Below the pieces are notes generated by a model. It was not told the DNA's origin, searched no databases, and saw only the letters and a program-made list of their open reading frames with translations. The position numbers and the translations under genes were made by a program. Below, in pieces: positions 9,217 to 59,090 of a stretch of 64,000 nt of DNA. The DNA lies in contig NZ_CP073695.1 of the NCBI RefSeq assembly GCF_018228765.1, forward strand, positions 2,651,218 through 2,715,217. The letters are read 5' to 3'. Position 1 is the first letter of the stretch. Each line of letters starts with the position of its first letter. The DNA is from Halorubrum ruber. Lineage in GTDB: Archaea > Halobacteriota > Halobacteria > Halobacteriales > Haloferacaceae.

Positions 9217-9644
9217 GTTTATAAATAACGAGCGGTAGCGTCCGAATCTGTTTATAAATAGACGACGGCGCTGCGACGAACACCGTCAAAGCCCCAGCCG
9301 CGAGGACGCCGCACACTCGCTGCGCTCCTCAGTCGCTCACTCCGTTCGCTCCCTGCGGTGCTTACGTCGTCTGCGGCGCCCTCGCGGCTGCCCCTTTGAG
9401 TCCCGCCCCGCACAGCAACCGCCGGAAGACGGTCCTGCTCGCTCGCTTCGCTCGCTGCGCGGGCTGCGACTTCCGTGCTCCCGCTCGCTCCCTTCGGTCG
9501 CTCGTGGGACCGCACCTCACGCCTCCCCAGCCTCGTCAGTCGCCGTCGCTTCGCTCCGGCGACTGACTCCCTCGCGCGGTGCTGCTCGGCCGCAGGGCGG
9601 CCTCGCAGGCACGCGCCACCGCTCCCCGTTCTACTTATAAATAG
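9217..9644 (-). repeat. Structured intergenic repeat, copy A
   Basis: Fills the gap between two convergent genes, in reverse orientation. Read on the minus strand it has in order: a TTATAAGT box, GGTGGCGCGTGCCTGCGAG, a GGCCGC/GCGGCC hairpin, GCACCGCGCGAGGGAG, a long GTCAGTCGCC/GGCGACTGAC hairpin, GAGGCTGGGGAGGCGTGAGG, an extra inserted hairpin region of about 90 bases, GGACTCAAAGGGGCAG, a long helix closed by GGCTGGGGCTTTG, and two TATTTATAAA boxes 33 bases apart. No gene is visible inside. The family is described further under copies D, F and G. Confidence 0.85.
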
Positions 9645-14612: not shown

Positions 14613-14952
14613 CGCGGTGGCGCGTGCCTGCGAGCGGCCGGAGCGAAGCGGAGGCCGCGAGTCAGCACGCGCGAGGGACGCCGCGAGCGATGTGGGCGAC
14701 CGAAGGGAGCCCCGAGCGAGCGGCGAGGCTGGGGAGGCGTGAGGCTGCGGTTGCGGTGCTGTGCGGGGTGGGACTCAAAGGGGCAGCGGCGAGGCGGTCG
14801 CAGGCGACGTAAGCACTGTAAGGAGCGAACGAAGTAAGCGACTGAAGCGCGCAGTGAGCGTGCGACCGCCTCGCGGCTGGGGCTTTGGAGGTAGTCCCCA
14901 TCGCCCGCGAGGGCGACGACTTGTGATCAGTTCGCGAACGAGATACTATTTA
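14613..14952 (+). repeat. Structured intergenic repeat, copy B
   Basis: Lies between the start of the MFS gene and the end of srp54. It carries the family blocks GGTGGCGCGTGCCTGCGAG, CAGCACGCGCGAGGGACGC, GAGGCTGGGGAGGCGTGAGG, GGGACTCAAAGGGGCAG, GACGTAAGCAC and GGCTGGGGCTTTGGAGG. The long helix arms here are GCGAGGCGGTCGCA and its exact complement TGCGACCGCCTCGC, different in sequence from other copies. The tail is degenerate and ends ACTATTTAAAAC, inside which the TAA stop codon of srp54 falls. Confidence 0.8.
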
Positions 14953-16449: not shown

Positions 16450-16906
16450 CTTATAAATGGCTGCTGCTGGATCGGTGGGGAACACCTCCAAAGCCCCAGC
16501 CGTTTACGTATCAAGGATTGCTGGCAGATTGGCGGCGAACACCGCCAAAGCCCCAGCCGCTCGGTTATACGTGGTCGATTGTGAACCGGCGCCGAACGCC
16601 CTCAAAGCCCCAGCCGCGAGGGCTCGGGGGCCTCGTTGCGCTCCTCGTCGCTCGCTTCGCTCGCTCCTGCGGTGCTTACTTCGGCCGCCTTCGCCCTCGC
16701 GGCTGCCCCTTTGAGTCCCACCCCGCACCGCTCCGCACAGCACCTCACGCCTCCCCAGCCTCGTCGGCCTCCCTGCGGTCGGCCGACTCCCTCGCGCGTG
16801 CTGTCGCCGGCGCTTCGCGCCGGCTTCCAGAGGGACCTTCGGTCCCTCGCGGCTCGGCCGCAAGGCGGCCTCGCAGGCACGCGCCACCGCGAAACAGGTA
16901 TAAATC
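16450..16906 (-). repeat. Structured intergenic repeat, copy C
   Basis: Reverse-oriented copy between srp54 and the DICT gene. On the minus strand it begins with a GATTTATACC box, then GGTGGCGCGTGCCTGCGAG and the GGCCGC hairpin. Two additional perfect hairpins (around 16801-16855) are inserted before the CACGCGCGAGGGAG block. The long helix has diverged and keeps only the GCGAGGGC/GCCCTCGC part. Three tail units of about 57 bases follow, each with GGCTGGGGCTTTG and a TATA-like or degenerate AT box. No gene is visible inside. Confidence 0.83.
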
Positions 16907-21134: not shown

Positions 21135-21522
21135 TGCGGTGGCGCGTGCCTGCGAGCGGCCGGCAGGCCGCGAGCAGCACCGCGCGAGGGAGTCGCTGGC
21201 GGCGCCAGCCGCCAGCGACGAGGCTGGGGAGGCGTGAGGTGCTGTGCGGTCGCGGTCGGGTGGGACTCAAAGGGGCAGTCGGGAGGCCGCAGTAGGCGAC
21301 GTAAGCACCGCAGCGAGCGAAGCGAGCGAGGAGCGCAACGAGCGTACTGCGGCCTCCCGGCTGGGACTTTGGCGGTGGTCACCGCCGATCTGCTCGTAGT
21401 TATTTATAAGCGAACGGCTGGAACTTTGGAGGCGTTCTCCGCCGATCCACAATCAGCTATTTATAAACGACCGGCCGCCACGTTGGCGACGCTTACCCCC
21501 GATCCACTGCCCAGTATTTATA
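21135..21522 (+). repeat. Structured intergenic repeat, copy D
   Basis: Fills the space between two convergent genes. Blocks: GGTGGCGCGTGCCTGCGAG, hairpin CGGCC/GGCCG, CACCGCGCGAGGGAG, a perfect GTCGCTGGCGGC hairpin, GAGGCTGGGGAGGCGTGAGG, GGGACTCAAAGGGGCAG. The long helix arms are GGGAGGCCGCAGTA and TACTGCGGCCTCCC, fully complementary and different from other copies. The tail has ATTTATAA boxes at 21402, 21459 and 21516, exactly 57 bases apart. The last box contains the TAA stop of the gene at 21518. Confidence 0.85.
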
Positions 21523-23423: not shown

Positions 23424-23574
23424 TAGTCCCGGGCGGATTCGAACCGCCGTCAATGGCTGACTTCGGGTATCCGACGGGCGTTCTTACCGGAACGCCCAAC
23501 AACCGCGTTTGAGTCGCAGACGCGGACGGATTCCCTCCAAAGGCCATTATGATTGGCCACTACACCACGGGACT
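23424..23574 (-). tRNA. tRNA-Gln (anticodon UUG) with a 78-base intron
   Basis: The reverse strand folds as a tRNA: acceptor arms AGTCCCG and CGGGACT, T-arm GCGGTTCGAATCCGC, and anticodon stem ATGGC/GCCAT around loop CTTTGGA with anticodon TTG at 23538-23540. The loop is interrupted after position 37 by an intron at 23459-23536. Around the splice sites a four-base-pair central helix (CTTT with GAAG) is flanked by three-base bulges GGA and TCA, the archaeal bulge-helix-bulge recognised by the splicing endonuclease. The mature tRNA is 73 bases; CCA is not encoded. Confidence 0.93.
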
Positions 23575-37237: not shown

Positions 37238-37565
37238 CTTATAAAAAAGGGGTGCGGTGGCGCGTGCCGACGAGCGCCCGGAGGGCGGGAGTCGCACGCG
37301 CGAGGGACGCCGCGAACGCCCGCAGGGCGTGAGCGGCGAGGTTGGGGAGGCGTGAGGTGCGGTCGCTGTGTGGGGCGGGACTCAAAGGGGCAGCCGTGAG
37401 GGCGTCGTAGGCGACGTAAGCACCGCAGGAACGAGCGAAGCGAGTGACGAGGAGCGCAGCGAGCGTACGACGCCCTCACGGCTGGGGCTTTGGAGACACT
37501 CGCCGCGGTGGCGTCAGTCACTTATAAACAGCCGACAGCAACACCGCTATCCGCGTTATAAATGG
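37238..37565 (+). repeat. Structured intergenic repeat, copy E
   Basis: Sits between the small membrane protein and the convergent ABC ATPase. It starts at a CTTATAAAA box, then GGTGGCGCGTGCC, hairpin GCCC/GGGC, CGCACGCGCGAGGGACGC, a nested GCCGC/GCGGC hairpin, GAGGTTGGGGAGGCGTGAGG, GGGACTCAAAGGGGCAGCC. The long helix arms GTGAGGGCGTCGTA and TACGACGCCCTCAC are exact complements. Two TTATAAA boxes 34 bases apart form the tail. The remaining bases to 37705 hold nothing recognisable. Confidence 0.85.
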
Positions 37566-37705
37566 CCTCACTCACGACGTACTACACCTACTCCCGCACT
37601 CGATCAAGAAGCACCGTTCAGCGAACAGCTGGTTCAGACGGTAATATGTCTGAAAAATAGGTGACAACCGAGCCAATCGTGCCCGACATCCCTACCGCGA
37701 CGCGC

Positions 37706-41434: not shown

Positions 41435-41925
41435 TGCGGTGGCGCGTGCCTGCGAGGCCGCCCCGCGGCCGAGCAGCACGCGCGAGGGACGCGGCGAACG
41501 CGAGCGGCGTAGCCGCGAAGCGTGAGCCGCGAGGCTGGGGAGGCGTGAGGCGCCGTGCGGAGCGGTGCGGGGTGGGACTCAAAGGGGCAGCCGTGAGGGC
41601 GTCGTAGGCGACGTAAGTAGCGTGGCGCTACGCGCCACGAAAAGCCGGCGGCGGAGCCGCCGGCGACACCGCAGGGAGCGAACGGAGTGAGCGACCGAGG
41701 AGCACAGCGAGCGTACGACGCCCTCACGGCTGGGGCTTTGGAGGAATTCGCCGCCGATCCGCTAGCAGTCATTTATAAACGAGCGGCTGGGTATTTGGCG
41801 GTGTTCGCCGCCAATCCACTGACAGTCATTTATAAACAGGCGGCTGGGGCTTTAGAGGAGTTCGCCGCCGATCCGTTAGCAGTCATTTATAAACGAACGC
41901 CTCGCGCCTCTGCGAGCATTTATAA
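41435..41925 (+). repeat. Structured intergenic repeat, copy F (longest tail)
   Basis: The most complete copy. Core blocks as in other copies, with long helix arms GTGAGGGCGTCGTA and TACGACGCCCTCAC. Two extra perfect hairpins (arms CGTGGCGC/GCGCCACG and GCCGGCGGC/GCCGCCGGC) are inserted within the loop at about 41618-41667. The tail has ATTTATAA boxes at 41771, 41828 and 41885, exactly 57 bases apart, then one at 41918, 33 bases later. The final box contains the TAA stop of the gene at 41920. Confidence 0.87.
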
Positions 41926-57894: not shown

Positions 57895-58761
57895 ATGGGA
57901 ACCATCGGATTCATCGGCGGCAGCGGCATCTACGACGCGCTCCCCCTGAACGACGTGCGCGAGGTCGAGTTCGACACGCCGTACGGCGAGCCGAGCGACG
58001 CCGTGACGATCGGCGAGTTCGGCGACACCGGAAAGGAAGTCGCGTTCCTCCCGCGCCACGGCTCGGACCACGGCGTCTCGCCGACCGACCTCCCGTACCG
58101 CGCGAACATGTACGCCTTAAAAAAGGCGGGCGTCACCCACATCTTCGCGTCGAACGCGGTCGGGAGCCTGAAAGAGGAGCTGGAGCCCGGAACGCTCGTC
58201 GTCCCCGACCAGATATACGACCGGACGAAGGGCCGCGACCTCTCCTTCTACGGCGACGGCGTCGTCGTCCACCAGCCGTTCGCGGACCCGTACAGCCCCG
58301 AGCTCGTCGACCACCTCACCGAGGCCGCGGAGTCGGCCGCGCCCGGCGACACGAAGGTCGTGAAGGGCGGCACCTACGTCTGCATCGAGGGCCCGCAGTA
58401 CTCGACGCGCGCGGAGTCGGAGTTTTATAAGAGCCAAGGCTGGGACCTCGTCGGGATGACCGCGATTCCGGAGGCGAAGTTGGCCCGCGAGGCCGAGATC
58501 GCGTACGCGACGATCGCCGGCGTCACCGACTACGACGTCTGGAAGGCGGACAGCGAGGTGACGCTCGAAGAGGTGCTCGAAAACGCCGAGAAGAACCAGA
58601 CGGCGATCAAGGCCGCCGTCGAGGCGGCCGTGCGGACGCTCCCCGAGGACTTAGAGTGCGACGCGCACACGTCGCTCGAAGGCACTGTCAACACGCCGAC
58701 CGAGGCGATTCCGGAAGAAACGCAGGAGCGCGTCGAGCCGCTTCTCGGCGATTACTTATAA
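57895..58761 (+). CDS. mtnP: S-methyl-5'-thioadenosine phosphorylase
   Basis: A 288-residue family-II nucleoside phosphorylase: FIGGSGIYDALPL, FLPRHGSDHGVSPTDLPYRA, IFASNAVGSLKEEL, VVPDQIYDRTKGRDLSFYG, YVCIEGPQYSTRAES and VGMTAIPEAKLAREAEIAYA. It releases adenine (or hypoxanthine) and methylthioribose-1-phosphate from MTA, a by-product of polyamine and related synthesis. Archaeal members can also accept other purine nucleosides. The TAA stop lies inside a CTTATAAATAA box that begins repeat copy G. Confidence 0.93.
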   Translation: MGTIGFIGGSGIYDALPLNDVREVEFDTPYGEPSDAVTIGEFGDTGKEVAFLPRHGSDHGVSPTDLPYRANMYALKKAGVTHIFASNAVGSLKEELEPGTLVVPDQIYDRTKGRDLSFYGDGVVVHQPFADPYSPELVDHLTEAAESAAPGDTKVVKGGTYVCIEGPQYSTRAESEFYKSQGWDLVGMTAIPEAKLAREAEIAYATIAGVTDYDVWKADSEVTLEEVLENAEKNQTAIKAAVEAAVRTLPEDLECDAHTSLEGTVNTPTEAIPEETQERVEPLLGDYL

Positions 58762-59090
58762 ATAAACGAGGCGATGCGGTGGCGCGTGCCTGCGAGGCCG
58801 CTTCGCGGCCGAGCAGCACGCGCGAGGGAGTCGGCTGACCGGAGCGAAGCGGAGGGAGGCCGACGAGGCTGGGGAGGTGTGAGGTGCGGGGCGGTCGCTG
58901 TCGGGCGGGGCTCAAAGGGGCAGTCGCGAGGACGCCGTAGGCGACGTAAGCACCGCAGGGAGCGAGTGAAACGAGCGACTGAGGAGCGCAGCGAGCGTAC
59001 GGCGTCCTCGCGACTGGGGCTTTGGAGGTGTTCGCCGTCGATCCGCTGCCAGTTATTTATAAGCGAGCGGCTGGGGCTTTGGAGACAGCT
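58755..59090 (+). repeat. Structured intergenic repeat, copy G
   Basis: Lies between the convergent mtnP and scpA genes, starting with the CTTATAAATAA box that holds the mtnP stop. Blocks: GGTGGCGCGTGCCTGCGAG, perfect hairpin GGCCGC/GCGGCC, GCACGCGCGAGGGAG, GTCGGC/GCCGAC hairpin, GAGGCTGGGGAGG, CTCAAAGGGGCAG. Long helix arms GCGAGGACGCCGTA and TACGGCGTCCTCGC are exact complements, extended by CAGTC/GACTG where other copies have CAGCC/GGCTG. One 57-base tail unit begins at 59055 and is cut short next to scpA. Confidence 0.86.

Follow-up and report, generated by a model that had tools for sequence, protein, structure and literature searches.

The long covarying helix at positions 58911-59026 of the window (the whole 64,000-nt stretch of Halorubrum ruber DNA analysed here) belongs to a non-coding element of ~270 nt, in which this helix, P3, is accompanied by two further hairpin domains (P1/P1a and P2) and by fixed unpaired motifs. 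The element occurs in ~190 copies in the 3.02 Mb single-contig genome, of which it makes up ~1.7%, and the pairing in P3 covaries above phylogenetic expectation. We give a probability of about 0.5 to the reading that it is a non-autonomous mobile interspersed repeat, recognition of which requires folding of its sense strand. The first-pass annotation had placed the helix correctly and covered P3 alone, the element reaching from ~58776 to ~59043.

Architecture of the element and its copies in the window

We use copy G, one of seven copies (A-G) in the window, as the reference for the element, which starts with GCGGTGGCGCGTGCC and ends with CTGGGGCTTTGGAGG(TGTTCGCCGCCGATC). From 5′ to 3′, it consists of P1 with the nested hairpin P1a, the variable hairpin P2, the motif GAGGCTGGGGAGGYGTGAGG, GGG-N-GGG and then P3, which itself reads CTCAAAG-GGG-CAG, a long hairpin, and CTG-GGG-CTTTG, with a tandem GA and a triloop in the inner hairpin. 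The features of copy G are as follows.

58757..58765, + strand: TATA-like stretch TTATAAATA, overlapping the stop codon of the gene upstream
58776..59043 (both approximate), + strand: whole conserved unit (GCGGTGG...GGAGGTGTTCGCCGTCGATC), delimited by copy alignment, 3′ base frequencies and orthologous loci
58782..58823, + strand: P1 helix, GCGCGTGC (58782-58789) with GCACGCGC (58816-58823), in RNA and DNA folds
58791-58815, + strand: hairpin P1a with a tandem GA/GA motif, inside P1, in RNA and DNA folds
58830..58864, + strand: P2, variable hairpin, in the RNA fold
58865..58884, + strand: GAGGCTGGGGAGGYGTGAGG, conserved unpaired motif, ~96% identity among all copies compared
58903..58920, + strand: G tracts GGG-N-GGG...GGG, with GGG-N-GGG conserved before CTCAAAG
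58913..59024, + strand: P3, with outer CAAAG/CTTTG, GGG/GGG internal loop and long covarying helix from CAG (58921) to CTG (59016)
59056..59082, + strand: 3′ tandem unit, TTTATAA and then a second GGCTGGGGCTTTGG, read from the sequence

For the 273-nt copy G, the minimum-energy fold as RNA contains P1, P1a, P2 and P3 (z = -4.1) and that as DNA contains P1, P1a and P3 (z = -4.7); the antisense strand also folds well (z = -4.2). The outer arms of P2 comprise many unrelated sequences, each mostly matched by its own complement. GGG-N-GGG lies immediately 5′ of CTCAAAG in 152 of 163 copies, the bases farther upstream being variable, and we speculate that the four G3 tracts (GGG-N-GGG...GGG together with 59017-59019) may form a quadruplex with P3 as its loop.

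The other six copies in the window are distributed over both strands.

9286..9617, - strand: copy A, with ~90 nt of additional hairpin segment between linker and P3; same site and strand in relatives G228 and G120 (truncated in G120)
14619..14888, + strand: copy B; same site and strand in relatives G228, G120, G313 and G257; site empty in G004
16602..16885, - strand: copy C, with P3 of the second type and an insert of two hairpins in the P1 region
21141..21372, + strand: copy D; occupied in six of seven relatives compared, empty in G257
37259..37493, + strand: copy E, the only one of the seven for which no relative read has an occupied orthologous site
41441..41741, + strand: copy F, two-hairpin insert of ~49 nt in the P3 loop; site occupied in five relatives

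Inserts of this kind are ~50-60 nt long, contain two small hairpins each and lie at a few fixed points within the hairpins of the element; we observed them in the window (41578-41741 and 16602-16885), at other loci (L006, L032, L034, L047, L050 and L056) and at the same points in other species. Many copies are followed by tandem 3′ units of ~57-62 nt with a phased TATA, the phasing being present in 91 of 149 copies, and the number of units varies between orthologues. Many of these units (window 59056-59082; L007, L024, L045 and L053) contain TTTATAA and GGCTGGGGCTTTGG, and their sequence is locus-specific. A second repeated stretch (CACTCACGACGTACTACACCTACTCCCG...) lies 3′ of a subset of copies (window ~37500-37660; L011, L026, L027, L032, L044, L047, L056, L058, L060, L063, L064 and L069); in some its end is GTTTCAACAGAGCC, a sequence that reads ATTTGGCTCTGTTGAAAC directly after other copies (L005, L027 and L070), and the stretch is possibly the end of another mobile element.

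Pairing and covariation

The first-pass annotation had described the arms of the long P3 stem as exact complements within each copy that differ between copies. The arms quoted for copies B, D, E, F and G are present and pair as described, copy A does keep its pairing through a G·T, and CAAAG/CTTTG pairs across the GGG/GGG loop in all seven copies (copy D reads GGA-CTTTG). The change from CAGCC/GGCTG to CAGTC/GACTG in copy G is likewise in the sequence, with exceptions that had been overlooked: copy D has CAGTC/GGCTG with a T·G pair, copy B has a G·G mismatch next to the long arm (CAGCG/CGGCTG), in copy C tandem GA/GA mismatches take the place of part of the helix, and copy F has its two-hairpin insert in the loop.

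To extend this beyond the window, we aligned 54 copies from several species, whose consensus fold has 36 pairs and is recovered by RNAalifold. Across these pairs, 98.9% of cells are paired, compared with 87.9 +/- 0.4 in shuffles (0 of 500 reach the observed value), and sliding the partner strand by 1-3 positions leaves only 29-46% of cells paired. Double compensatory changes occur in 21 of the 36 pairs and in 200 cells, against shuffled means of 12.5 and 41.8, neither of which any of the 500 shuffles raised to the observed number. Helices 3-5, which are short, inner and split by conserved mismatches, also covary in this alignment. Outside P3, the P1a arms that flank the tandem GA/GA are complementary in 77% of distinct hairpins compared with 40% in shuffles (shuffle maximum 56%).

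A covariation test on many copies had been proposed as the check on the helix, and we carried one out on 170 copies with our own R-scape-like implementation (not R-scape itself), in which substitutions are re-placed along a tree, a null whose assumption is violated by recombination between copies. The six highest-scoring column pairs are all true pairs, and four of them reach E<0.05 with zero false pairs. The outer CAAAG/CTTTG pair ranks eighth and is not significant alone, and the remaining true pairs are individually non-significant under this strict null.

Copy number, distribution and turnover at fixed sites

Searching the genome for CTCAAAGGGGCAG with at most one mismatch returned 189 matches (89 and 100 on the two strands), compared with 2 and 3 for reversed controls, and the GAGGCTGGGGAGG motif, within the unpaired motif GAGGCTGGGGAGGYGTGAGG, returned 194 compared with 0 for its reversed control. 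The 156 exact copies lie in both orientations with even spacing and no strand runs; a series of + copies over the first 210 kb hinted at a replication-strand or clustering bias, and the whole-genome test shows none. All 19 Halorubrum genomes in an order-wide search carry the element, with copy numbers from 14 to 194. Genomes of a second genus (f17 g35) have between none and 103, and a few other genera have some, patchily; named records with the element include Halorubrum, Halorussus, Haloparvum, Halobellus and Halosimplex. Most copies examined outside Halorubrum share the 5′ module only and have different 3′ parts. In Halorussus-type copies (L180, L077 and L079), inverted GCTAGC-containing stretches (CAGTAGCTAGCTTC...GAAGCTAGCTACTG) follow the 5′ module and replace P3. 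A Halosimplex copy (L122) has a CTGAAAGGG...CTTTCAG helix at the position of Halorubrum P3 and a Haloparvum copy (L105) begins alike, which suggests that 3′ domains may be exchangeable.

Four haloarchaeal plasmids in the plasmid collection match the element, with no annotated feature under the copies, and the phage collection gave zero matches. The window has no relevant Rfam (15) match at the gathering threshold and a single chance-level one at a relaxed threshold. GCGGTGGCGCGTGCCTG resembles the Alu domain of SRP RNA, a likeness treated as chance since the Rfam SRP models gave no match. We found no description of the family in the literature searched, where subscription papers were thinly covered.

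To follow individual sites, we compared seven relatives as longer syntenic blocks and as stretches around the copies. At six of the seven sites in the window (A, B, C, D, F and G), two to seven relatives carry the element at the same position, and on the same strand wherever the flanking genes gave a consistent orientation. The 5′ flanks of sites B and D can be aligned as far as the start of the element, and these are therefore inherited insertions. Flanking DNA at orthologous sites is ~76-97% identical and the fixed motifs are 94-96% identical everywhere, yet hairpin arms that share a site resemble each other no more than those of random copies do (0.66 vs 0.66 for P1a, 0.60 vs 0.61 for P2 and 0.73 vs 0.73 for P3). 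In the closest pair examined (site D, where the gene is 97.5% identical), the P3 arms are nearly shared and P2 differs; it is the only such pair. Occupied and empty sites are both found between species, with flanks too diverged to show precise insertion, and in some more distant relatives the element downstream of the gene of copy G is reversed or absent. Core-deleted and truncated copies also exist, the core-deleted ones occurring at orthologous sites. A search for an autonomous long copy with an open reading frame between the two halves found none among the loci examined, where the core-less copies were truncated or came from other genera.

Given that sharing a site does not make hairpins more similar than random ones, most double changes look like replacement of whole hairpins rather than stepwise repair in place, and the most economical interpretation is that recombination with other copies swaps hairpins in whole blocks. 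Two copies from one genome are no closer to each other than two from different genomes, which argues against ordinary homogenisation and means that the source pool must be broad. The first-pass annotation had taken arms that change together between fixed flanks as a sign of selection on the fold. Preservation of the structure is borne out by the tree null, the shuffles, the slid registers and a strand asymmetry described below; compensation step by step in place mostly is not. These sites constitute an unusually clean natural experiment, with structure kept at fixed positions and sequence memory erased, that allows testing of how structured repeats are maintained, and they serve as a warning that covariation in multicopy elements can arise by swaps of whole hairpins rather than by stepwise compensatory mutation.

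A proposed mobile repeat and its alternatives

The reading as a mobile repeat draws on the evenly spread copies in both orientations, the occupied and empty sites and the truncated copies, on the palindromic inserts, the covariation with its strand bias and the sharing of sites without sharing of hairpin sequence, and on a copy number that varies widely across Halorubrum and is patchy in other genera. Under this reading, the element would have dispersed across Halorubrum by mobility and would now mostly be passed on at fixed positions. Whenever its sense strand is single-stranded (as DNA in transposition or recombination, or as a transcript), that strand would fold into P1/P1a, P2 and P3, with the fixed G-rich unpaired motifs holding the hairpin domains and some enzyme or protein recognising the fold. 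Recombination between copies would overwrite the hairpins, using the fixed motifs as anchors, and selection on the fold would act through mobility, not through a function in the cell.

Several observations count against it. Among the one TnpA and 21 TnpB loci of the genome, none has element-like ends, so that no transposase with matching ends was found; where the motif matched near some of the IS605-type loci, the match was either a distinct copy next to the locus or a lone short hit. A test for target duplication, which compared flank similarity within and between copies, gave no significant signal (p = 0.1). The six occupied sites are strikingly stable in position between species, which resembles retained loci more than active transposons, and the equal likeness of copies within and between genomes is unexpected under simple homogenisation within a genome. 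A search for an autonomous long copy with an open reading frame between the two halves found none among the loci examined, where the core-less copies were truncated or came from other genera.

Foremost among the rivals is a structured non-coding RNA present in many copies and having a cellular function, perhaps a large ornate RNA or scaffold, each copy being transcribed and each locus kept by selection; we regard this as unlikely, if worth serious thought. Large structured RNAs such as HEARO, OLE and GOLLD are several hundred nucleotides long, with multiple domains and strong covariation, features that the element shares; it differs from them in its ~190 copies, in the lack of an Rfam match even at a relaxed threshold and in that no associated protein gene was found. 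The conservation of position across species and the strict fixation of the unpaired motifs would suit such an RNA, and so would a preference on the sense strand for G·U over A·C, which amounts to 40 vs 7 cells in the alignment and is exemplified by one pair that is CG in 55 copies, TG in 55, TA in 24 and CA in 2. Counted as tree-inferred events, the preference is 32 vs 15 (p = 0.019). Its strength varies with how independence is counted, since distinct local contexts alone give a non-significant 19 vs 10, and a sense-strand C-to-T mutation bias could mimic it or add to it. The bias favours the fold of one particular strand, whether RNA or single-stranded DNA, over a symmetric cruciform.

The loops at the hairpin tips are less suited to an RNA. 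Most have 3 nt (at the tip of P3, 134 against 14 with 4 nt); the former are mostly GNA and the latter are GNYA rather than GNRA, which is nearly absent. GNRA tetraloops are typical of structured RNA, and the pattern seen fits stable hairpin loops of DNA better than the usual tetraloops of RNA. The folding molecule may be RNA or single-stranded DNA; the DNA-type loops (GNA and GNYA) are counted in favour of the mobile repeat. In 90 of 153 copies, a TATA-like box precedes the element by ~14 nt, which would speak for transcription, yet this spacing would place the start within P1, too close for a usual promoter of a transcript that contains P1. The wide range of copy number within one genus (and from none to many in a second) is also at odds with a cellular RNA, as is the free orientation to neighbouring genes in tandem contexts. 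With context genes called by a simple codon-composition rule, 32 copies lie in convergent and 9 in divergent contexts and the tandem contexts are evenly split by orientation; this led us to reject a role as a 5′ leader, and a context rich in convergent genes points to tolerated insertion instead. Strong transcription, which would suit an RNA, is on record for a repeat classed as PATE (palindrome-associated transposable element) that occurs in Halorubrum lacusprofundi and in its virus (PMC10544981).

A broader proposal, which we put forward as speculative and doubtful, is that the element represents a new family of large structured RNAs, or of folded single-stranded DNAs, in Halobacteria. Each Halorubrum genome would then carry ~190 gene-like copies, the 5′ module would be common to several genera and the 3′ domains would be specific to lineages. 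A quadruplex with P3 as its duplex loop might underlie the fold, and the loci would be retained between species as their hairpins are continually reshuffled.

The structure could also be maintained at the DNA level only, by template switching at extruded hairpins (quasi-palindrome correction) and with no selection on the fold, which we hold to be improbable. The stable-DNA-type loops, the similar fold z-scores of both strands and the change of hairpins as whole units would all be expected from it. Copying of one arm from the other, which had been named as what would undermine the case for selection, would by itself predict equal G·T and A·C and not the excess of G·U seen both in cells and in tree-inferred events, although the non-significant count of distinct contexts and the possible C-to-T bias soften this argument. 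It also does not readily account for the preservation of helices 3-5 between their conserved mismatches, or of the pairing across GGG/GGG.

The mobile repeat finds its closest likeness in the PATEs of Haloquadratum walsbyi (Dyall-Smith et al. 2011), which number 177-194 copies per genome in total, vary in sequence, can lack their core, are attacked by small palindromic repeats and include 'switch repeats' at identical positions (PMC3119063). The element is likewise haloarchaeal and non-coding, similar in copy number, heterogeneous, core-deleted, hit by small palindromic repeats and with 'switch repeats' at identical positions. At ~270 nt it is too short to encode a transposase, its ends (5′ GCGGTGG.., 3′ ..CTTTGGAGG) show no terminal inverted repeat, and near-terminal palindromes are formed by P1 on the 5′ side and P3 on the 3′ side. 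It differs from PATEs in its three-domain covarying fold with fixed G-rich motifs, in positions conserved across species and in a 5′ module common to several haloarchaeal genera. Its ends are unlike the palindromes and terminal sequences of the IS605-type elements of this genome; because this defining relation is lacking here, membership is not established and we do not file the element as a PATE, even if it works like one. That it is a solitary guide-type RNA or an end fragment of IS605/TnpB transposons, and in this strict sense a PATE, is very unlikely, with none of 22 IS605-type loci in this genome having element-like ends. This holds despite the 21 TnpB genes and a partial fit to PATEs, which are non-coding, lack terminal inverted repeats, have near-terminal palindromes and a conserved short terminal oligonucleotide and serve as targets for small palindromic repeats (PMC3119063).

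The element is not a MITE in the sense of terminal inverted repeats matching a transposon, as its ends are not inverted copies. A bacterial analogue is provided by the BOX elements of Streptococcus pneumoniae, which are modular, non-autonomous, structured, present in many copies and proposed to be parasitic and slow-moving (PMC3049150). The element shows the same modularity in its optional two-hairpin inserts, the variable number of 3′ units and a 5′ module joined to different 3′ parts; it differs in being archaeal, very GC-rich and unrelated in sequence, and in the full turnover of hairpin content at fixed sites. The two-hairpin inserts resemble, by description alone, the SMR-A small mobile repeats that target palindromes of larger repeats, which are ~110 bp long (PMC3119063) compared with ~50-60 nt for the inserts. 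Elsewhere in the window, 23424-23574 on the - strand has an Rfam tRNA match that spans 151 nt against a 71-position model and was missed by ARAGORN, and is probably an intron-containing tRNA.
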